From: Apteryx mantelli
Taxonomy: Eukaryota > Chordata > Aves > Apterygiformes > Apterygidae
Assembly: GCF_036417845.1 (NCBI RefSeq)
Contig: NC_089981.1
Span: 65,189,268 to 65,253,267, forward strand
Reading direction: 5' to 3'
DNA length: 64,000 nt
Numbering within the stretch: the stretch's first letter is position 1; each line of letters opens with the position of its first letter. Below are positions 11,960 through 51,250 of the stretch, one piece after another. The notes under the pieces were generated by a model. It did no database searches, had not been told where the DNA came from, and saw nothing but the letters and a program-made list of their open reading frames with translations. Made by a program: the position numbers and the translations under genes.

Positions 11960-12850
11960 CAGCAGGCCAGGCTAGGCCATAACAGGTGGCGGAAGGCCAG
12001 CGGGAGCTGCCCAGGCCGCCTTTCAGTGAGGGGGCTCCTTTCCACCACGTCCCCCCAGGCACCTCCCGGCGGCCGCGCGCCGCTCGCGCACCTGCAGCGC
12101 CCCGCCCCCGCCTCACGCCAGCGCGGGAGGCCTGCGGCAACGGCTCCCGCCCCGCTCTCCCTCCCACGAGCCGCAGCGCGACGCCACAGCGACGCCTGCG
12201 CGCGCGCCGCGGGCACGAGCTGCGGCACCTCTCCCGTCTACCGGCGGCCGCGAGGCGGCGCATGCGCGCCGAGGCCACGCCGGCTCCAGTGGCGAGCGCG
12301 CCCGCGGAGCGCAGGCAGCTCGCTGTGCTCATGCGCACAGGCGGTGTCCTGTCGGGCAGCCTTCCTCTTCCGGGATGGGTTTATCTAGGCGATGAGGGTA
12401 GGTTTGTGTCCATGGTGGCGGCAGCGCGCATGTGCGGCCAGGCGGCACTCTGGTTGTGGCGGCTTGTTCGCAGGTGAGGGGTGGCCTGGGCCGGCCGGGG
12501 GCAGGGCGGCGGGGGCTGTGGGGCTTAGAGAGCCGCTCGGCCCGCCGTGCCGTGCCGTGCGGCGGTGGTGCGGGGCGGCGGCTGGGGCCCGACGGCCGGG
12601 GTCGCTCGTCGCGCCGCCCCGGCCGGGCGGCTGCGCGGGGCCCTGAGCTGACGCCGGCCGCCTCCGCCCCGCGGGCCCTGCCTGCCCGCCGGCGGCCCCG
12701 GGGGATCGGCCCTCGCCGGCTGCGGCAGCGGGCGAGCGCCGGGAGGCGGAGTCGGGGAGGCGGCCGGGCCGGGCCGGGCCGGGCGGGCCGGCCGAGCAGC
12801 TGCCCCGCGGCCGCGGCGGCCCCGCCGGGGCGGCCCTTCCGGGGTTCGTT
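11960..12850. promoter_or_regulatory. CIPC: CpG-island promoter of CIPC
   Basis: Base composition changes abruptly from AT-rich flanks to very GC-rich DNA dense in CpG, including GGGCCGGGCC-type tracts near 12,767-12,796. It ends near 12,850, and the first coding exon of CIPC begins about 2.7 kb downstream on the same strand. A non-coding first exon inside a CpG island is usual for this kind of broadly expressed gene. The island is wide enough to fire in both directions, but no gene on the - strand was recognised to its left. Open frames crossing the island on both strands follow from the lack of A/T-rich stop codons and are not reported as genes. No TATA box is evident. Confidence 0.82.
12260..12473 (+). 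other. CIPC: Probable non-coding first exon of CIPC (start uncertain)
   Basis: Within the CpG island, CGCAG|GTGAGGGG at 12,469-12,481 is a strong splice donor on the + strand, placing an exon end at 12,473. The transcription start is not visible; the left limit given is only a guess within the island. The next acceptor of the gene, TTTTTATAG, ends at 15,507. The donor is inferred from the motif only, and other donors in the island cannot be excluded. Confidence 0.45.
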
Positions 12851-15507: not shown

Positions 15508-15682
15508 CTCCTCAATGAAAAAGGTGTTGAAAACTGCCTCCAGCATTGTGGAGGCATGGAGAGAAAATAGTCACCTCTTGAGAGCCTCAAGGAACTATTG
15601 GGCAAAGTGATGCAAATGAAGAGATTGAACCATCGCTTCAGCATGGCAGCAGCTGAGTCTGACAAGGACTCCGGATACTCAG
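15508..15682 (+). other. CIPC: CIPC exon with upstream ORFs and start codons
   Basis: The acceptor is TTTTTATAG ending at 15,507, preceded by a pyrimidine-rich run. The donor is TACTCAG|GTTTAG, with the exon ending at 15,682. The exon carries part of the 5' leader, two short upstream ORFs, and the first 40 coding bases counted from the ATG at 15,643. The exon ends after the first base of an Asp codon (phase 1), and the next exon completes it with AT. Confidence 0.85.
15515..15610 (+). promoter_or_regulatory. CIPC: Upstream ORFs in the CIPC leader
   Basis: One upstream ORF starts at the ATG at 15,515, runs 31 codons and stops with TGA at 15,608-15,610. The last A of that stop is the first base of the in-frame CIPC ATG at 15,610 (TGATG). 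A second, in the CIPC frame, starts at the ATG at 15,556 in strong context (G at -3, G at +4) and stops after four codons at the TAG at 15,568-15,570. Such leaders commonly lower translation and can allow reinitiation; that effect is inferred here. Confidence 0.6.
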
Positions 15683-18443
15683 GTTTAGAAAAAGACTGTT
15701 TCCTTTCTTTCTGTTATCTTGCTCAGAGATTGCTTTTGTTGGTAACATTTGACAAGTCTGTCTCTCTTTAGACCCTTGCTGCTTGTATCTGGTTTGTTGG
15801 AAGCCCGTTTGTGCACAGTACAGGTTGAAAAATCATCCTACCATCAAAATTTTTGGAGGGGAGCTTTATGTAGTTACAAAGATCATCCTGTGAATTTTGA
15901 ATGGCATGAGAGTTTAAAATATGCCTAATAAAGAAATTAATAGATGAATCTCATATTTCAGAGTGTAGAAGCAGGAGTGGAAAGATCACTTCTAGTTCAT
16001 TGCAGTGATGAATGAACTACTGCATTATGCTGTCTAATGTCTCTTAGGATACAATCAGATCATCAGTAGAGCCTGATAAACTAGAAAGTAATTTTTATAA
16101 CATCAATAAAATGTAGAAGCAGTGTTCCATCTTAATACTCAACAAAACTATGCAAAGATTGCCTTTAAAAGATAAAAATGCTTTTGTGAGAGATACCTGA
16201 CTTCCTGGGTTTGTAGACAAGAGATTTTAAGACACAATGACTGCAGCACAGACTATGACTATAGCAATGCAGAATCTTGTAATTCTTTCCTGCATCTGGC
16301 TGTAGAGTTGTTCTAATGCTAGTATGCAGGCCCTTGGAGATTAAATGCAAAGGAACAGAAAGTTTGCTTGGGAGCAAGCATCTGCATAAGAACTGGCCTG
16401 AAATACAAAGTCTTTTATTAAAGGGCATTTGACAGCTGTCATAGTGTGGCTAATTTTAATGATATTTTAGAATTAGACTTTATTATTCTTTGTGACTTGA
16501 CTGAACAGGAGCAGAACAATAGAACTGAAAGAAGTTAGCAGGCATACTGCGTGTAAAACAACTAACAGTCACATTCTACCCCTGGCAGATGGAAGCTCAG
16601 AGTGCCCAAGTGCTATGGAGCAGATGGACTCGGAGGACGTGCTAAACACACTGTGTTGGAACACAGAGGATGGGCCTTGGCCATGCCCAATGACTACAAA
16701 CAGTTCCTTTCCTGCACTTTCTCCTATGGTCGTAATGAAAAATGTGTTAGTTAAACAGGTAGGGAAGAAATAATATATTGGAAAACACTACATGTTCTTC
16801 AGAAAAGAAGTGGGGGTTTTTGTTTTTTTGTTTTCTTTTTTTTTTTTTTTACTATTTTCCTTTCAGAAAGAATGATGCAAGTTGTTACAGTTGCAGTACA
16901 GAAAGTAACTGGTGACTCAAAGTTCTGTTACTGAGAGCCTGCCCTTTTGAAGGGCGGCTAAAATCACTAAAATGGAACAATGGGAAATGTAGTTGTTCTA
17001 CTACATCTGCTAAACCTCTTTGTCTCAAAGGGACCCACCCAAAATAGATCTTATAGAATGCTGTGTAAATAGCACCAGAGATCAAGCCAAAAAACTTAAT
17101 ATGAATATATTTCTCCTTTTGAAAGCTGGTGTTTTCTTTTTGTGTACTTAGATGCTAGAGAGCTTAAACAATAAAGTCATGTGATTCATTTTGCTTGCTA
17201 GTTCTTAAGTCCTAGAAGTGTTTTATATGCAATGGGAAACCCTAATCCAAAATATTATAAATGAAAAAATTTAAATCTCTGTCTAAACTTGGCTATAGTA
17301 TTTTTACTTCAGTAGTTGTTTCTTTTAATTACATGTGATGGCTCATGTTGTAACAATTACGTATTCCCTAACTAGATCTTCTAACATCATGATGTTTGTT
17401 GCTCCTGTAGCATATCTATAAGACACTTAAAACATTTAAAATAGCTTCAACAGAAGATGAGAGAGGTACAAATCCAAAGTATTGTCTTATTTTAAGACCT
17501 CTTGCTCTGTACTTGCTCATATTTTGTGAGCAAAGTAATAGTTCTTCAGCCTTTTTTTCTGACCAGAGTACTTCAGCGAATGCAGTGGGGTGGGAAGGAT
17601 ATAGGCCCTAATTCTTTTTTTTTTTGAATCTATTACAACAACAGGCAAAACTGATTGAACTCAATATGGTTAGTGCATCAGTGCTAACAGAGAGATGGGT
17701 TTCTGTTAGTATGTGGCAGATTATGCATGTGTGGGGGAGACAGTTCTGATTTGTGTTGTGCTTTATCTTGACAAGAAACAAATTTTGTTTATAGCCAGGT
17801 CCCCAGATGTGTGGACAAACTCTATAAACAGCTGCTGAAGGTACATTTGGTAGAGAATGGGCAAGCTTCACCTACTGATAGTCTTCGAACTGGAGCTTAA
17901 AAGTGGAACACTGATTCCCATGGTAGTCTGATATTAAACTGTAGATCATGTTGCAGTCATGTTAAACTGAAGAATGTTTACTGCAGTAAACAAAAGCAGC
18001 AAGTCTAGATCAGAATGATAATGAAGTGTGCATCTGCCCTTTTCTATTAGGCGTAGTTACCCCAGGTAGTCACATTGGACATCTTTTTAAAATGGTCTTT
18101 TCAACACAGTGCTCAGTTGGGCTCACTGCACCAAAAAATAATGCAACATTCCCAGTTACTGCTGTTTATTCATTCCAGTTGCGATTTCAATCAGCATTAT
18201 CCTTCTGTTTTGGTTTTGCATGACAGTGGTTGCTGAACCGCGGTGATCCAGCACAATAATGCTTACTTGCTGCTCTGATTTCAGAGTGTAAACAGCTAAC
18301 AACAATGTTAATAAAAAGCAAGCTGGGATTAACTTTCTGAAACATAATAAACTTTGTTGCAAGGTTTCTATTAGTCTTGTAAAAGTCCTTAATATGTAGG
18401 AAGGTATTGTAGACGAGTGACACTGATAACCGCAGATTGTAAG

Positions 18444-18478
<35 letters not shown>

Positions 18479-21078
18479 AAAAGGCAGAATTAATAGGATA
18501 AATGTATCTTCAAATGAGATGCTGGGTAGGAGAAAGAGAGCAGAACACAACGTGAGTGGAAAGGAGAAGAAGATGGATAGCAGAGAAAGGAAAAACAAGA
18601 GCAAGACAAACAGCTTGGTTACACTGTTATCACAACACTTTTTCAACAAGTTTGGGGCTCTGCTGTGCCTAGGTACCATGCAAATGTACAGTAGACGAGA
18701 ACTTCTGATCCAAAGTTTTCTCCTTAAGACTGCATGTTCTGTTCTCTGTTTACGCAGCTGAAGTATTTATTTACTGTACCACTCCTAAAGTCTCCAGCTA
18801 CTGTTCTTCTAAATATGTTTGTCCTTCCTTCTGTGAAAGAAGGAAATAATACTAACATTTCACAGGTTGTTGTTCTGTACCCCTATTCCATAAGCATCTT
18901 GCCCACTGAACCAAAGGAATCAGATCTGTGTCAGAGTAGGTAACTGAATCTCATCTCCAAGTCTCAGTATGTTAATCAGTTGATCATATCTACTTTTGAT
19001 GAGTTTTAGCCCTTTGCTGGGGGGAATGGACTTCAGCAAAACATTTTATTATTTGCCAGCTTAAAATCTATAAGACTGGGGAAACGGAGATGGGTTTTAG
19101 ATGAGTCAGTATAGTGCCAGAAATAATAAAATGTCTCAGTGCTAGCTAAAAACTGTACCTTTATCAAGCCTATCAGCAGCATTCTAAGTAGTAAGCTTTA
19201 GGAATTAGAGAAACAGCTGACAGTATGTTATGATTCTATTAGTATAATTGTAGTGGTGATGCCTTAAATATACAAGAAGTAAGACTTTTTTTCAGGAAGA
19301 AAGTATCTCTTACTAGACCATTTGATATGGTTGGAAAAAAGCAGGCATACTTATCAGCCAGGAAATCTGATGACAATCCCTAGTAATATATTGAAGGAGG
19401 AGGTAACATCTTGTAAAATTGATCTGTCCACTTACATTGAAGAATGTGACTCGTAGGGAGGACTAGAAGCTCAGTCATTTTTCTTGAAATATAATGCTTT
19501 TAAGGCTTATCGATGCACCCTGTATTACCAAAGGTGTGAAATTAAATTTCTCTAAGCTTACAACAGGCTGCTCTGCTTGGGCTGGTTGATATTCAGCATT
19601 TTTCTTCAACTTCATGCTTTTAAATTTATTGAAACTGTGTATTGTATTTAAGACTGCAAGACTTTCTAAGCAGCTGTCATCTATTTTAAATAACAATTTC
19701 AAAAGCTTGCTATAAGAACAGAAATGACAGGTTTAGAGTTGCTGTCTTTCAAAAGAGAGGAAGTTTGAATCGTTCTTAAAATGTCTGTGCAGCATTTCTT
19801 TGAGTCAATTAAAATATTCCATAACTGAGTGTTGTGGTTATTTTTCAAGGTTTCTGTGCACTTGTTCTACCCCAAGTCTGGTAATAATTCTACACCAGCA
19901 TTGTAGAATGTAAGCATACACTTTAATCCTCACATGTACAAATTCAAATGTAATTGTTTTTAAATGTTTCTGCTTTACATAATAAATGGATTATGGATTA
20001 TGGCCTTGATTCTAGAGCTATATTCTGTTTTCAGAGGAAGGAAAGATGAGTTTGATGGAAACCTGTTCAAAATGCATTATAATGAAGTGTGTGTATCAAA
20101 TATTGTGAAGGACTGACACAGATCATCTGTTTTGTTTGAGGTTTTTTTCTCCTTTTCTACCATGTAGTTAAAATAATTCCATGTTTCCTCATTTGTGCTT
20201 TCCAGGGGAGTTCATCACAGCTCCAGTCTTGGACTGTCCAGCCATCCTTTGAAGTGATTCCAGCTCAGCCTCAGCTAGTGTTTCTTCACCCACCAATCCC
20301 ACCTCCCATTAACCCTCACCCTATTGGGAAAAAGAGAAGTGACTCTGCTAATTACCTGCCTATCCTGAAGTCTTATCCCAAAATAGCACCACAGCCCTGC
20401 AAAAGAGATCACTCCTTGGATCTAGAGGAAGGTGAGGAAACCAATTGCCATAAACGCCTCTGCACAGAAGCAGCCAAGATGGAGACTTCTCCCCTGTCAA
20501 GGAGCATGGGTTTTCCCACTGGTCCTTTTGCCCACCTACCAGTTAGCTTTAAGTCTGCTCAGGATTCTAACCAGCAAAGTTCTTCAACTCTGATGACAAA
20601 TGGAAAAGTGTCAGGTCTTCCCAGTTTTCATCGTATTTCCACTGACACACAGAAAGTCCCAGGTCTGGCTCCCCTTTTGCCTTTTGGAACCCTGCAGGCA
20701 ACAAAGTACACCCCTCCTGAGACTACAGCACAGCATATGATGCAGTCTGCAGTGTGGAGCCCACCATTGGTACCAGAGGAGATTTGCACTACCCCTGAGC
20801 TGCTCTTACAACAGCAAAGCAAGTGCAGACGCTTTCAGAATACACTGGTTGTGCTACGTAGGTCAGGATTGCTGGAGATTACCTTAAAAACCAAGGAGCT
20901 CATTCATCAGAACCAGGTCACTCAAGCTGAGCTGGATCGGCTAAAGCACCAAACGCAACTTTTCATAGAGGCAATAAAGAACAATGCTCCACAGTCTTGG
21001 GCAGAGCTAGAAGCATCTCTGACAGGATCAGATAAGTCTGATAGCAGCACTGAAGATTCCACTTATCCCAGTATGTAG
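15643..21078 (+). CDS. CIPC: CLOCK-interacting pacemaker (CIPC), spliced coding region
   Basis: CIPC binds CLOCK in the nucleus and represses CLOCK-BMAL1 transcription, and so acts in the circadian feedback loop. The coding segments are 15,643-15,682, 16,589-16,758 and 20,206-21,078; joined, they stay in frame and give 360 residues (human about 399). Recognisable parts are MAAAESDKDSGYSDGSSEC at the N terminus, SPMVVMKNVLVKQ at the end of the second segment, GSSSQLQSWTVQPSFEV opening the third, NYLPILKSYPKIAPQP, and the C-terminal block from FQNTLVVLRRSGLLEITLKT (about residues 280-340). That block is heptad-like and is the conserved CLOCK-binding, coiled-coil part of the family. The middle (about 140-265) is low in conservation and rich in P, S and T. 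I chose the ATG at 15,643 because its context (A at -3, G at +4) is strong; in-frame ATGs at 15,610 and 15,616 would add 11 or 9 residues. The apparent ancestral start at 15,556 is closed by a TAG (see findings). Confidence 0.9.
16589..16758 (+). other. CIPC: CIPC coding exon (middle)
   Basis: The acceptor is ACCCCTGGCAG ending at 16,588; the donor is AAACAG|GTAGGG with the exon ending at 16,758. The 170 bases plus the one base carried over make 57 codons. The peptide starts DGSSECPSAMEQMDSEDVL and ends with the family block SPMVVMKNVLVKQ. Ends in phase 0. Confidence 0.9.
16759..20205 (+). other. CIPC: Last coding intron of CIPC
   Basis: Intron bounded by GTAGGG and TGCTTTCCAG. It contains a T-rich run near 16,817-16,850 and the poly(A) run noted separately. 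No nested gene was recognised; open frames inside it are short and on both strands. Confidence 0.8.
18448..18476. repeat. Poly(A) run of 29 in the last CIPC intron
   Basis: Twenty-nine As, then G and five more As. No AATAAA lies 10-30 bases before it, and no mRNA-like or SINE-like body was recognised upstream, so it is treated as a homopolymer run and not as a retrocopy tail. Confidence 0.9.
20206..21078 (+). other. CIPC: CIPC last coding exon
   Basis: The acceptor TTGTGCTTTCCAG ends at 20,205. The frame opens in phase 0 with GSSSQLQSWTVQPSFEV and runs 290 residues to the TAG at 21,076-21,078. It encodes most of the protein, including the conserved C-terminal block. The C terminus is acidic and Ser/Thr-rich (GSDKSDSSTEDSTYPSM). 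A frame that seems to start at 20,254 begins with a GTG (Val), not a start codon, and is simply the inside of this exon. Confidence 0.93.
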
Positions 21079-43900: not shown

Positions 43901-45860
43901 ATGTTTATTGTCTCTCAGTGATTACCATGACAAATCTGCTAATTTGCCAAGTAGAGAGATATTTGTTTGTTTTCAGATGGCAACCCTGCAAATTCAGCCT
44001 GGAATCCAAAAAGCTAGCTGGGGCCTCTCTGGCTCTTGTACCAGCAATGAAGATTCCACAATCAAATCATAATCAACACTTCTGGTGACAGTGCATGAGC
44101 CAGAACAGATGCCAGACCTTTATTACGGAGCTCAGTTGAATCTGCAAAGCTAAAAAATACGGAATACCTATTTTAGTCTGTAAAGAAAGCTGATCTAAGT
44201 CTGCTAGGCATGAGCTGCATATGGGGAAAAATGACATTTTTCTGCAGTCACTTTCACGGCAGAATAACACACTAAGCTCTCTGCATAGTCACTTCTCAGA
44301 GATCAGGTTTTATCTATTGTCAGGTTTTATCTATCTCTTAGGTTTGGACAGAGGAAGGTTTGGGGCTAGAGAGTTTGGGGGGCAAGCTGAAAGGTGAAGT
44401 GACAACATTGGAAGAGCAGAGGAAGAGTTGTGGGAGCAGAATCAGGAGGAGGAAGGGGAGCATTTGAGAGATTTATGGAAGAGCAGGAAGAGAGGGGAAG
44501 GCAGAAAAAGCAGAAGAAGAGGTAAGGGATGGTGAAAGGAAGAAAGGCATTTGCTTTTGGTGCAGAGCTCTTGCAGAGAGCAGGCATATGGAGAATTTCC
44601 ACATCTCTGTGGAAACTTGTTTCAGACTGGGGTCAAGAAAGAGCTTGCTAATCATGTCACATTAACTTTCCTCTTGGTTTCTAGAAGCTAACTGTTGCCT
44701 GAACCTGAATTCTCCTGTGCTGGAAGAATGACAAGGTATTAGTAAGTTTGCACTGCCAGGATAGTAGGTGGGTAACAGTGAATGCAGTGGGTGCATGGAC
44801 CTAGATCAGGAGAGTGGGAATATTTCTGTTGGGATATGGGGAACCTGAAGATCTGTAGGATGTGAAAACCCACAGACCCACCACCACCACCCACCTCTGC
44901 TTGTAGGACAGCAAAAAGATGCCTCTTGCTTATAGGACAATTGCTGAAATCTTCTCTCTCCTCCTGTCTAATTGCAACACACTCCCTGTGTGACCAACAA
45001 CCCTATTCTATCACTGACAAGCTGGTTATGGTTTTTTAGTCTAATGCATTATGTATAGGGCTGTGGCTGTAACTTGGAGCGGGTTCCAGCCTTTATTTCA
45101 GCTGAAGCAAAATCATTTGCAAGCACCGCCTCTAGACTCTAAACAAGGCTTTACTGAACACAAATAATTCTTGCTCTTGCCCATTCCCCCCTCTACCAAC
45201 CTAATCCCCCATTACTGGGGAAAGAGCATGTCCTCCCTCACACCCCAGGGGCCCAGGAGGAGGAACATGCTCCTCATCTCTGAGGAAGGAGTCCTTACCT
45301 GAGAAGAACTGGCTGATGGAGTGAGGCAGAAGGGTGAAGAAGGCCAGTGGATTTGCAAAGGACATGGAGAGTACGACAGAAATGTAAGCCATGCCTGCCA
45401 CCAGGGAGTCGAGGCAAGCCAGGGAGGTGTAGAGGCAGAACATGATGAAGTTCCGCATGTTCCTGCTCCCGATGCAGTTCCCTGTGAAGAAACAGTGGTG
45501 GTCATGCCTCTGGGTGACTCTGGCACACAGTCTACAGAAGTGAGTGCTGGGCAAGACTGAGCCAGGGGACCTGCTTCCAGCCAGCCAGTCCGCCACCACT
45601 TCAGCTCCTTCGCCCAAGTTTAAGCCCTTGCCCAAGTCCTCAGGGGAGCTCTGGATCACAAGTACGTAGTTGCCCAGGGCATTAGCTGAGAGGAAGAGGA
45701 AGAGGGCCCCATGCAGCAGAGCAGGAGAGAGAAGTGAGGTGGTGGAAGGGTCTCTGAACATGCTGGGGATGAAGAGAAAGATCTGGAGGACGAAGGTCAC
45801 TAGGGAGATGCACAAGAAGTAGGCTGGAGCAACAACATTGAGCAACCTGAGAACTAGCAT
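40672..45860 (-). CDS. ZDHHC22: Palmitoyltransferase ZDHHC22, spliced coding region
   Basis: DHHC proteins attach palmitate to cysteines of membrane and neuronal proteins from within ER/Golgi membranes; ZDHHC22 is mainly neural in mammals. Coding segments, on the - strand, are 45,860-45,299 and 40,937-40,672. They join in frame (phase 1) and give 275 residues; human is about 263. Four hydrophobic stretches are visible: about 11-31, 46-68, 137-165 and 196-222. The cytosolic cysteine-rich loop holds HFCRLCARVTQRHDHHCFF, with the DHHC motif at residues 120-123 (catalytic Cys123) and then TGNCIG. The C-terminal half carries LRGQTRYQVRKG, RARPWRENLQEVFGKRWLL and a charged tail, as in the mammalian protein. 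The first Cys-x2-Cys pair of typical DHHC domains is absent, which I recall also for human ZDHHC22. The start ATG at 45,860 lies 14 bases after a likely splice acceptor. Confidence 0.92.
42694..42732 (+). other. Near-perfect 18-bp hairpin with 3-base loop
   Basis: Arms at 42,694-42,711 and 42,715-42,732 are exact reverse complements except at one position, which becomes a G-U pair in + strand RNA. The loop is GCA. The left arm reads AAATAAAACTTATAGCCA. It lies in the ZDHHC22 intron, on the strand opposite to that gene. It is too short for a standard microRNA precursor. Its origin (a mini inverted-repeat element, or a local duplication in inverted order) is unknown. Confidence 0.85.
44345..44560. 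repeat. Purine-rich tract
   Basis: About 200 bases dominated by A and G on the + strand with many GGAAG and GAGGA words (for example AGGAGGAGGAAGGGGAG near 44,444-44,460). No tandem unit is regular. The complementary ORFs are low-complexity pyrimidine reading and are not genes. Confidence 0.6.
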
Positions 45861-45874
45861 TGCGGATTACATTC
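45299..45874 (-). other. ZDHHC22: ZDHHC22 first coding exon
   Basis: On the - strand, TTTCCCCTGCAG|GAATG marks an acceptor with the exon starting at 45,874, 14 bases before the ATG at 45,860. The donor is TTCTCAG|GTAAGG at 45,299. It encodes residues 1-187 and the first base of codon 188: three membrane segments and the DHHC loop. Confidence 0.88.
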
Positions 45875-46879: not shown

Positions 46880-47210
46880 CTGTCCTGACTCCCTCTCCCT
46901 GCCCCTGGCCGTCCCTTCCAGTCCTTGTTCTGTCCTGCCCTGTCCCGCTCCCTGTCCTATCCCTGTCTGATTCCTGTACTCTCTCTCTCCTCCAACTGTC
47001 CTACCCTGTGTCTCTCCCTCTCCCTGTCCTTTCCAGTTCTCGTCCTGTCCCTGTCCTTCTCTCTCTTCCTCTGCCTCTCCCTGTCCTGTCCTTTTCCTTT
47101 CCGGTCCTTGTCCTCCGCCGTCCCTGTTCTTCTCCCCTTTTGTCCTTGTTCTGTCCTCTTCTTCTCACTATCCCTTCCCCTTCCCCCGCCCCTGCCCCAT
47201 CCCTGTCCCT
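46880..47210. repeat. Degenerate pyrimidine tract rich in CCTGTCC
   Basis: About 330 bases with few purines on the + strand, made of loosely repeated CCCTGTCC, TCCTGTCC and CTCTCCCTG words. It runs directly into the more regular minisatellite and shares its CTGTCCC core, so the two probably have one origin. Long open frames across it on the + strand are low-complexity and not genes. Confidence 0.8.
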
Positions 47211-47550
47211 TCAGCACTCATCCCTATCCCTCAGCACCCAGCTCTGTCCCTCAGCACCCAGCTCTGTCGCTTCAGCGCCCATCCCTGTCCCTCAGCACCC
47301 ATCCCTGTCCCTTCAGCACCCAGCTCTGTCCCTTCAGCACCCGGCTCTGTCCCTTCAGCACCCGGCTCTGTCCCTCACCACCCGGCTTTGTCCCTCACCA
47401 CCCGGCTTTGTCCCTTCAGCATCCAGCTCTGTCCCTCACCACCCAGCTCTGTCGCTTCAGCACCCATCCCTGTCCCTCAGCACCCAGGTCTGTCCATCAG
47501 CACCCGGCTCTATCCATCAGCGCCCGGCACTGTCCCTTCAGCGCCTTCTG
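47211..47550. repeat. Minisatellite, 20/21-bp unit, 16 copies plus a partial
   Basis: Units of the form TCAGCACCCAGCTCTGTCCC with an optional extra T are repeated head to tail from 47,211 to 47,537, followed by a part unit. I count 16 whole units, nine of 20 bases and seven of 21. Variants include ATCCC for GCTCT (units 1, 4, 5, 13), CCGG for CCAG (7-10, 15, 16), and TCACC for TCAGC (9, 10, 12). The mixture of unit lengths shifts the reading frame repeatedly, so it does not encode a repeat protein. There are no spacers, so it is not a CRISPR array. Confidence 0.95.
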
Positions 47551-49517: not shown

Positions 49518-51250
49518 TTCACAGAATCACAGAATCACAGAATGGTTGAGGTTGGAAGGGACCTCTGGAGATCATCTAGTCCAACCCCCCTGCTCAAGCA
49601 GGGTCACCTAGAGCACGTTGCACAGGATCGCATCCAGGCGCGTTTTGAATATCTCCAGAGAAGGAGACTCCACAACCTCTCTGGGCAACCTGTTCCAGTG
49701 CTCTGTCACCCTCACAGTGAAAAAGTTTTTCCTCATGTTCAGATGGAATTGTCTGTGTTTCAGTTTGTGCCCGTTGCCTCGCGTCCTGTCACTGGGCACC
49801 ACTGAAAAGAGTCTGGTCCCATCCTCTTGACACCCTCCCTTCAGATACTTGTACACGTTGATAAGATCTCCTCTCAGCCTTCTCTTCTCCAGGCTAAACA
49901 GGCCCAGCTCTCTCAGCCTTTCCTCATAAGAGAGATGCTCCAGTCCCCTAATCATCTTTGCAGCCCTTCGCTGGACTTGCTGCAGTAGTGCCACATCCCT
50001 CTTGTACTGGGGAGCCCAGAACTGGACGCAGTACTCCAGATGTGGCCTCCCCAGGGCTGAGTAGAGGGGGAGAATCACCTCCCTCGACCTGCTGGCAACA
50101 CTCTTCCTGATGCAGCCCAGGATACCATTGGCCTTCTTGGCCACAAGGGCACATTGCTGCCTCATGCTTAACTTGGTGTCCACCAGCACTCCCAGGTCCT
50201 TCTCCGCAGAGCTGCTTTCCAGCAGGTCAACTCCCAACCTGTACTGGTGCCAGGGGGTTATTCCTCCCCAGGTGCAGGACCCTGCACTTCCCTTTGTTGA
50301 ACTTCATGAGGTTCCTCTCCGCCCACCTCTCCAACCTGTCCAGGTCTCTCTGAATGGCAGCACAGCCCTCTGGTGTATCGGCCACTCCTCCCAGTTTGGT
50401 ATCATCAGCAAACTTGCTGAGGGTGCACTCTGTCCCTTCATCCAGGTCATTGATGAAGAAGTTGAACAAGACTGGAGCCAGTACTGACCCCTGGGGGACA
50501 CCGCTAGCTACAGGCCTCCAACTAGACTCTGCACCACTGATCACAACCCTCGGAGCTCTGCCATTCAGCCAGTTCTCAATCCACCTCACTGTCCACTCAT
50601 CTAACCCACACTTCCTGAGCTTGTCTATGAGGATGCTATGGGAGACAGTGTCAAAAGCCTTGCTGAAGTCTAGGTAGACAACATCCACTGCTCTCCCCTC
50701 ATCTACCCAGCCCGTCATTCCATCATAGAAGGCTATCAGATTGGTTAGGCATGATTTCCCCTTGGTGAAGCCATGCTGACTACTCCTGATCACTTTCTTG
50801 CCCTCCACATGCTTGGAGATGGCCTCCAGGATGAGCTGCTCCATCACCTTTCCAGGGATGGAGGTGAGGCTGACTGGCCTGTAGTTCCCTGGGTCCTCCT
50901 TCCTGCCCTTTTTGAAGACTGGGGTGACATTGGCCTTCTTCCAGTCTTCAGGCACCTCTCCTGTCCTCCATGACCTTTCAAAGATGATGGAGAGTGGCTT
51001 AGCAATAACATCCGCCAGCTCCCTCAGCACTCATGGGTGCATCCCATCGGGGCCCATGGATTTGTGGGTGTCAAGTTTGCCTAAAAGATCTCTAACCCGA
51101 TCCTCCTTGACCAAGGGAAAGTCTTCCTTTCTCCAGACTTTCTCTCCAGGGTCTGGGGTTCCTGAGGGCTGGCCTGAGCAGTAAAGACTGAAGCAAAGAA
51201 GGCATTCAGTAACTCTGCCTTCTCTGCATCCTTTGTCACCAGGGCACCCA
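49518..51250 (-). mobile_element. CR1 LINE, avian type, 5'-truncated, antisense
   Basis: The 3' end is at the left. TCACAGAATCACAGAATCAC is the reverse complement of the ATTCTGTGA octamer repeats that end bird CR1 elements instead of a poly(A) tail, and it is followed by the typical AGGTTGGAAGGGACCTCTGG stretch. The RT coding region runs leftwards from about 51,250 to 49,608. Right of about 51,250 the CR1 match stops, so the copy is 5'-truncated to about 1.73 kb, the usual fate of CR1. It is much less diverged than the other CR1 pieces here, and so younger. It lies about 3.6 kb upstream of the ZDHHC22 start and in the same orientation as that gene. Confidence 0.95.
49608..51250 (-). pseudogene. 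Broken CR1 reverse transcriptase (ORF2) fragment
   Basis: Two overlapping frames on the - strand, 51,030-50,227 and 50,237-49,608, are the C-terminal part of CR1 ORF2. The first holds RT signatures: [34 protein letters not shown] and the catalytic FADD in KFADDTKLG. The second holds the thumb/C-terminal part ([26 protein letters not shown]) and ends at NVL. They are separated by what looks like one extra base near 50,257-50,262. A TGA at 51,033-51,031 stands where the family has an Arg codon, in line with CpG decay of CGA. The endonuclease part is missing. Non-functional. Confidence 0.88.

Follow-up and report, generated by a model that had tools for sequence, protein, structure and literature searches.

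An in-frame TAG at codon 5 ahead of CIPC in the kiwi Apteryx mantelli: a candidate four-codon upstream open reading frame and candidate downstream starts

In the kiwi Apteryx mantelli, the frame of the circadian gene CIPC is closed by a TAG at the fifth codon of an ATG that probably corresponds to the mammalian start, and beyond this stop it runs on into an intact coding sequence. The explanation that best accounts for this arrangement, to which we give a probability of about 0.72, is that CIPC would start downstream, mainly at the ATG at 15643 (360 residues) and probably in part at that at 15610 (371 residues), and that the ATG at 15556 would act as a four-codon upstream open reading frame (uORF). 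All positions refer to the window, i.e. the whole stretch of 64,000 nucleotides analysed (contig NC_089981.1 of assembly GCF_036417845.1, positions 65,189,268 to 65,253,267 of the forward strand). The start-site difference at CIPC is real but of a fairly ordinary kind, as start-codon turnover and uORFs are both already known.

A closed upstream frame in an intact, single-copy gene

The coding exons and the frame that precedes them comprise the following features.

15556 to 15570, + strand: four-codon ORF, M-E-R-K-stop, in strong context (G at -3 and +4), at what we take to be the mammalian CIPC start position
15568 to 15570, + strand: in-frame TAG, barring entry into the CIPC frame from upstream; the next base is T
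15571 to 15609, + strand: open, start-less stretch (SPLESLKELLGKV), alignable to the presumed human N-terminal extension
15610 to 15642, + strand: possible short N-terminal extension MQMKRLNHRFS, from ATG 15610 or 15616
15643 to 15682, + strand: coding part of CIPC exon 2; ATG 15643 is the start of the MAAAESDKDSG block, and a GT donor follows 15682
16589 to 16758, + strand: CIPC exon 3, from AG/GT splice signals and translation
20206 to 21078, + strand: CIPC exon 4, coding part with the stop codon, including the region that aligns with PDB 5vji/5vjx (CLOCK-interacting pacemaker)

At 15556-15570 the sequence ATGGAGAGAAAATAG reads ATG GAG AGA AAA TAG (M-E-R-K-stop), with the TAG at codon 5 as the initial annotation had described. 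Its further claims, that the frame then stays open and that the protein could begin at 15610, 15616 or 15643, proved accurate: the same frame, read on from 15571, gives SPLESLKELLGKVMQMKRLNHRFSMAAAESDKDSGYS, is stop-free up to the GT donor after 15682 and continues into an intact CIPC, and these three are the in-frame ATGs that follow the TAG. With the stop at 15568-15570 shutting the frame, no upstream start, in exon 2 or earlier, makes CIPC from an mRNA containing this stretch, so the start must be 15610, 15616 or 15643 in any transcript that retains it. The elements that define a uORF, namely an AUG, a short frame and a stop before the main start, are all found at 15556-15570.

The gene is CIPC, and its coding exons carry no mark of a pseudogene. 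Once joined and translated, they give 371 residues from 15610 or 360 from 15643, without a stop, and AG/GT borders are present wherever introns adjoin the coding exons (exon 2 up to 15682, 16589-16758 and 20206-21078). The product matches the Pfam family PF15800 (CiPC) at 372.4 and 372.7 bits, for a cut-off of 27, over positions 1-337 of the 338 of the profile, and its C-terminal segment gives a 62-residue match to chain C of PDB 5vji (CLOCK-interacting pacemaker; E 5e-25), a segment presumably solved in complex with CLOCK, to judge from a title cited in a review on CIPC (PMC12285964). The PF15800 domain begins only at S6 of the form starting with MAAAES, five residues after its methionine, and adding the upstream stretch (with X at the stop) brought no gain in Pfam score (372.4 versus 372.7 bits). 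Because the TAG lies outside this domain, the conserved part of CIPC loses nothing, and because an extension of the MERKN type lies outside it too, membership of the CIPC family stands despite the stop. The sequence itself, the gene, its frames, its single copy and the unaffected state of its conserved domain are thus directly established.

The search for further copies covered the assembly of 1.504 Gb in 408 contigs. The exon 2 pattern and the 251-base exon DNA were each found at one place, and the CIPC protein at three, which are the three coding exons of one gene (8 of 8 candidates scored); no second CIPC copy or retrocopy, which might have kept an older codon or the exon 1 junction, was found in the assembly by the pattern, protein and DNA searches. 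Neither the degenerate exon 2 pattern (0 in viral contigs, 0 in genome contigs, a content of viruses and prokaryotes that says nothing on birds) nor the exon 4 protein (no relative confirmed among 12 pattern stretches in viral contigs, 92 in genome contigs, and plasmids, a viral, prokaryote and plasmid content equally uninformative on birds) had counterparts in other collections. Elsewhere in the assembly, a cytochrome b match at 76869236-76869688 of contig C5 (the only one of 11 candidates scored) is probably a nuclear copy of the mitochondrial gene, since it lies inside that contig and contains four TGA and one TAA by the standard code; no tRNA was found in the 3453-base locus, and no separate mitochondrial contig in that search.

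Several other features of the window can be mentioned in their own right. An open frame of 221 residues on the minus strand (45201-45866) resembles a DHHC palmitoyltransferase, probably ZDHHC22, presumably also a neighbour of CIPC in human. A tandem array at 47196-47542 (units of about 20 bases, 16.6 copies, 85% matches, with periods of 41 and 61 bases as well) lies within several long open frames, and two further long open frames on the minus strand at 49608-51030 (231 and 267 residues) resemble fragments of the reverse transcriptase of a CR1-type LINE, perhaps from a fairly young insertion.

Likeness to the human N terminus and the age of the start

Human CIPC presumably begins MERKN, and its coding exon is assumed here to span the whole of this stretch. 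Aligned with this presumed N terminus, the CIPC frame reaches a global score of 36 and the other two frames -12 each, so that the initial annotation was right in proposing an alignment, which exists in the CIPC frame only; its shared residues (E9-S10 and K17-V18) and its spacing of 33 versus 30 codons hold as well, against the same presumed human sequence. None of 5000 shuffles matched this alignment globally and 2 of 5000 did so locally; once the MERK tetrapeptide is left out, the corresponding figures are 0 and 170 of 5000, and for codons 5-18 (the stop position and the codons after it, ten of them through codon 18) 18 and 115 of 5000. The match to the human N terminus is thus not due to chance, if the presumed sequence is right, and ATG 15556 and the presumed mammalian start are probably the same site. 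A MERKN extension as such is absent here, the TAG at codon 5 shutting the frame; the presumed human letters are not part of what defines PF15800.

Searches in print were directed at the same region. The human stretch printed in the available text of PMC5703641 (UniProt Q9C0C6) starts exactly at MAAAES, and 29 of its 40 positions are identical to the kiwi block; strings of this block were present there and MERKN was not, nor were human N-terminal strings upstream of the block found in print. Titles and the beginnings of abstracts on CIPC with chicken, KIAA1737, start codon or ERK held nothing on the CIPC N terminus, and the words 'isoform' and 'N-terminal' do not occur in the accessible portion of a review on CIPC (PMC12285964).

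Which of the two starts came first? It is possible, if tentative, that the downstream one is older, i.e. that the amniote ancestor began at or just before the MAAAES methionine, that mammals gained the extension and that the TAG marks no loss, a view compatible with the downstream initiation preferred here. The Pfam CiPC domain speaks for it, as the extension lies outside the curated domain, and so does the decay of the alignment past MERK, where the presumed human extension agrees with the kiwi stretch at 7 of the next 25 positions, versus the 29 of 40 in the block after it; this part of the stretch may simply be an untranslated leader. Against it, the difference in length amounts to three whole codons, and MERK and the later shared residues stand in the CIPC frame only, which fits a stretch that once was coding, although DNA homology of a leader could yield much the same frame-restricted likeness. 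From one sequence, neither the state seen here nor that of mammals is identifiable as the older.

Downstream initiation and its alternatives

The bases at -3/+4 of the four ATGs are G/G at 15556, G/C at 15610, C/A at 15616 and A/G at 15643. Judged by the usual start-context rules, 15643 has the best predicted context among the candidate CIPC starts; conservation, too, begins there, with the MAAAESDKDSG block. Given its own strong context, ATG 15556 most likely acts as a four-codon uORF, an outcome judged the likeliest and missing from the list in the initial annotation, whose downstream starts are retained and whose readthrough and sequencing error are weaker options.

The following steps can be proposed. 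Many scanning ribosomes would translate M-E-R-K at 15556 and stop; after the TAG they would leave, or their 40S subunits would resume scanning and reinitiate 40 to 73 bases downstream (40 bases separating the stop from 15610, 73 from 15643), the longer distance to 15643 favouring reinitiation. Ribosomes that skip 15556 by leaky scanning would start directly at 15610 or 15643. The presence of the stretch in the mRNA, the choice of start and any influence on the level of CIPC are the parts that we infer. Against the proposal, reinitiation would have little room in 40 and 73 bases, which are short distances for it, and little leakage is expected past strong-context starts (PMC7397870), which 15556 is. 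Four factors govern reinitiation after short uORFs, among them elongation time and how far away the next start lies (PMC5972666).

Known systems come close to this layout in part. In-frame downstream starts that yield shorter proteoforms are documented, and are under selection behind weak starts (PMC7397870, which cites Bazykin and Kochetov 2011); as in CIPC, a downstream ATG in good context gives a slightly shorter protein, but in those cases the upstream frame is open and its context weak, whereas in kiwi CIPC the upstream ATG combines a strong context with a frame closed by a stop. N termini of yeast proteins turn over quickly (PMC11249729). The DENR-dependent uORFs of mouse Clock (PMC6547434) likewise are short, AUG-started frames in strong context before a clock-gene coding sequence. 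In reporters, uORFs of one or two codons are reported to be the most DENR-dependent, versus four codons in CIPC, and PMC6547434 itself describes no effect of uORF length and a greater tendency to DENR dependence for longer distances between uORF and coding sequence, compared with which the distance in CIPC is short. The word CIPC is absent from the available text of that paper. In birds, variant 1 of chicken PPAR-gamma (PMC7058706) has a repressive uORF in an avian leader that reduces how much main protein is translated, as would be the case here; that uORF was tested with reporters, and the abstract does not relate it to any start codon in use elsewhere, whereas for CIPC the letters of the genome are the source.

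The leader itself and the exon upstream of it contribute four more features.

12474 to 12479, + strand: probable exon 1 donor in a GC-rich region (CAG/GTGAGG)
15508, + strand: probable first base of exon 2, after the acceptor ...ctatttttatag; an alternative acceptor precedes 15473
15515 to 15610, + strand: 31-codon ORF in another frame, its TGA sharing bases with ATG 15610 (TGATG); weak context (T at -3, A at +4)
15535 to 15556, + strand: perfect 8-bp hairpin TGCCTCCA-gcattg-TGGAGGCA, predicted at -14.7 kcal/mol, the 3' arm of which ends on the A of ATG 15556

An overlap of the TGATG type is known from a cellular case of coupled termination-reinitiation (PMC5972666), and the TGATG at 15610 resembles that layout and may be used in the same way. 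If exon 1 ends at 12473, joining 12412-12473 to 15508-15610 lengthens this 31-codon ORF to a uORF of 54 codons that runs from exon 1 into exon 2, the end of which overlaps ATG 15610.

As the first exon and the exon 2 acceptor are predicted, the uORF would be missing from any transcript that begins, or is entered by splicing, downstream of 15570, and the stretch might be missing from the mature CIPC mRNA, wholly or in some of it, so that ribosomes never meet the ATG-TAG. This is unlikely. Between 15400 and 15650, four AG sites have at least 11 pyrimidines out of 17, and one of them is downstream of the TAG (exon start 15592, 11/17), but the two most pyrimidine-rich (exon starts 15473, 13/17, and 15508, 12/17) are upstream of the ATG, and the human coding exon presumably spans the stretch.

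It is very unlikely that the TAG stems from an error in the assembly or from a rare variant in the bird that was sequenced, even though a single assembly is involved: the stop lies in a contig of 90.8 Mb, the exon occurs only once in the assembly, and a base substitution would be needed rather than an error in the length of the AAAA run, because the downstream frame is already right and an indel would not join MERK to CIPC. Hardest of all to credit is readthrough of the TAG with production at some level of the full extension (including SPLESLKELLGK), since the open frame after the stop, the one point in its favour, is weak evidence when the MAAAES methionine follows the TAG after only 24 codons. 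In addition, folding of the RNA past the stop does not exceed that of shuffled sequences (z -0.53, with 57 of 200 shuffles as good), motifs of the UGA-CUA and UAG-CAR-YYA types are absent at the TAG, and UAG followed by U, the context found here, is not known to be a leaky one.

Frequency of the arrangement and its significance

Short frames of this kind are common. In the window, 496 of the 2356 ATGs (both strands, ATGs with a stop in the window) have a stop within four codons, 270 are in strong context (R at -3, G at +4), and the two features coincide in 36; among the overlapping 135-base stretches of the + strand, 433 of 12773 (3.4%) contain a strong-context four-codon frame, and 25% contain at least four ATGs, as does the 135-base stretch leading up to 15643. 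A four-codon frame by itself is therefore not rare. A uORF is said to be present in nearly half of mammalian transcripts (PMC10187673), and of the 192 translated upstream regions covered by one human survey the majority are said to be primate-derived; 42 are conserved at least in mammals, and 16 of these 42 extend beyond mammals (PMC11317171).

The hairpin calls for similar caution. The whole 175-base stretch does not fold unusually well (z -1.14, 26 of 200 shuffles as good), and the value for the hairpin alone (z -3.7, 2 of 200 shuffles) is overstated, as it was picked after folding that stretch. The window has four perfect 8-bp hairpins with at least five G-C pairs and loops of 3 to 8, and 24 of any composition, the one at 15535-15556 being GC-rich. 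No Rfam match was found in the window at gathering scores, and a scan for promoters and terminators of bacterial type, uninformative here, gave 0 and 0.

A bolder reading, which we regard as decidedly improbable, is that this lineage turned the start of a clock repressor into a strong-context uORF behind a hairpin, so that CIPC output would depend on reinitiation (for instance through DENR-MCT1), a control that mammals would lack. Reinitiation control of CIPC is suggestive in that DENR-dependent reinitiation acts on strong-context uORFs and on mouse Clock (PMC6547434); a whole-word search found no literature joining CIPC, uORF and circadian.

What the downstream start of CIPC would mean depends on how far the TAG extends. 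Should it be confined to a single species or individual, only the dispensability there of the first 29 codons follows. If a whole clade has it in fixed form, annotating CIPC in that clade by similarity to mammals would give wrong N termini. Reinitiation already ties translation to the clock through Clock (PMC6547434), and a fixed TAG would provide, in a circadian gene, a clean natural case in which the main start codon of one lineage is an upstream ORF in another.
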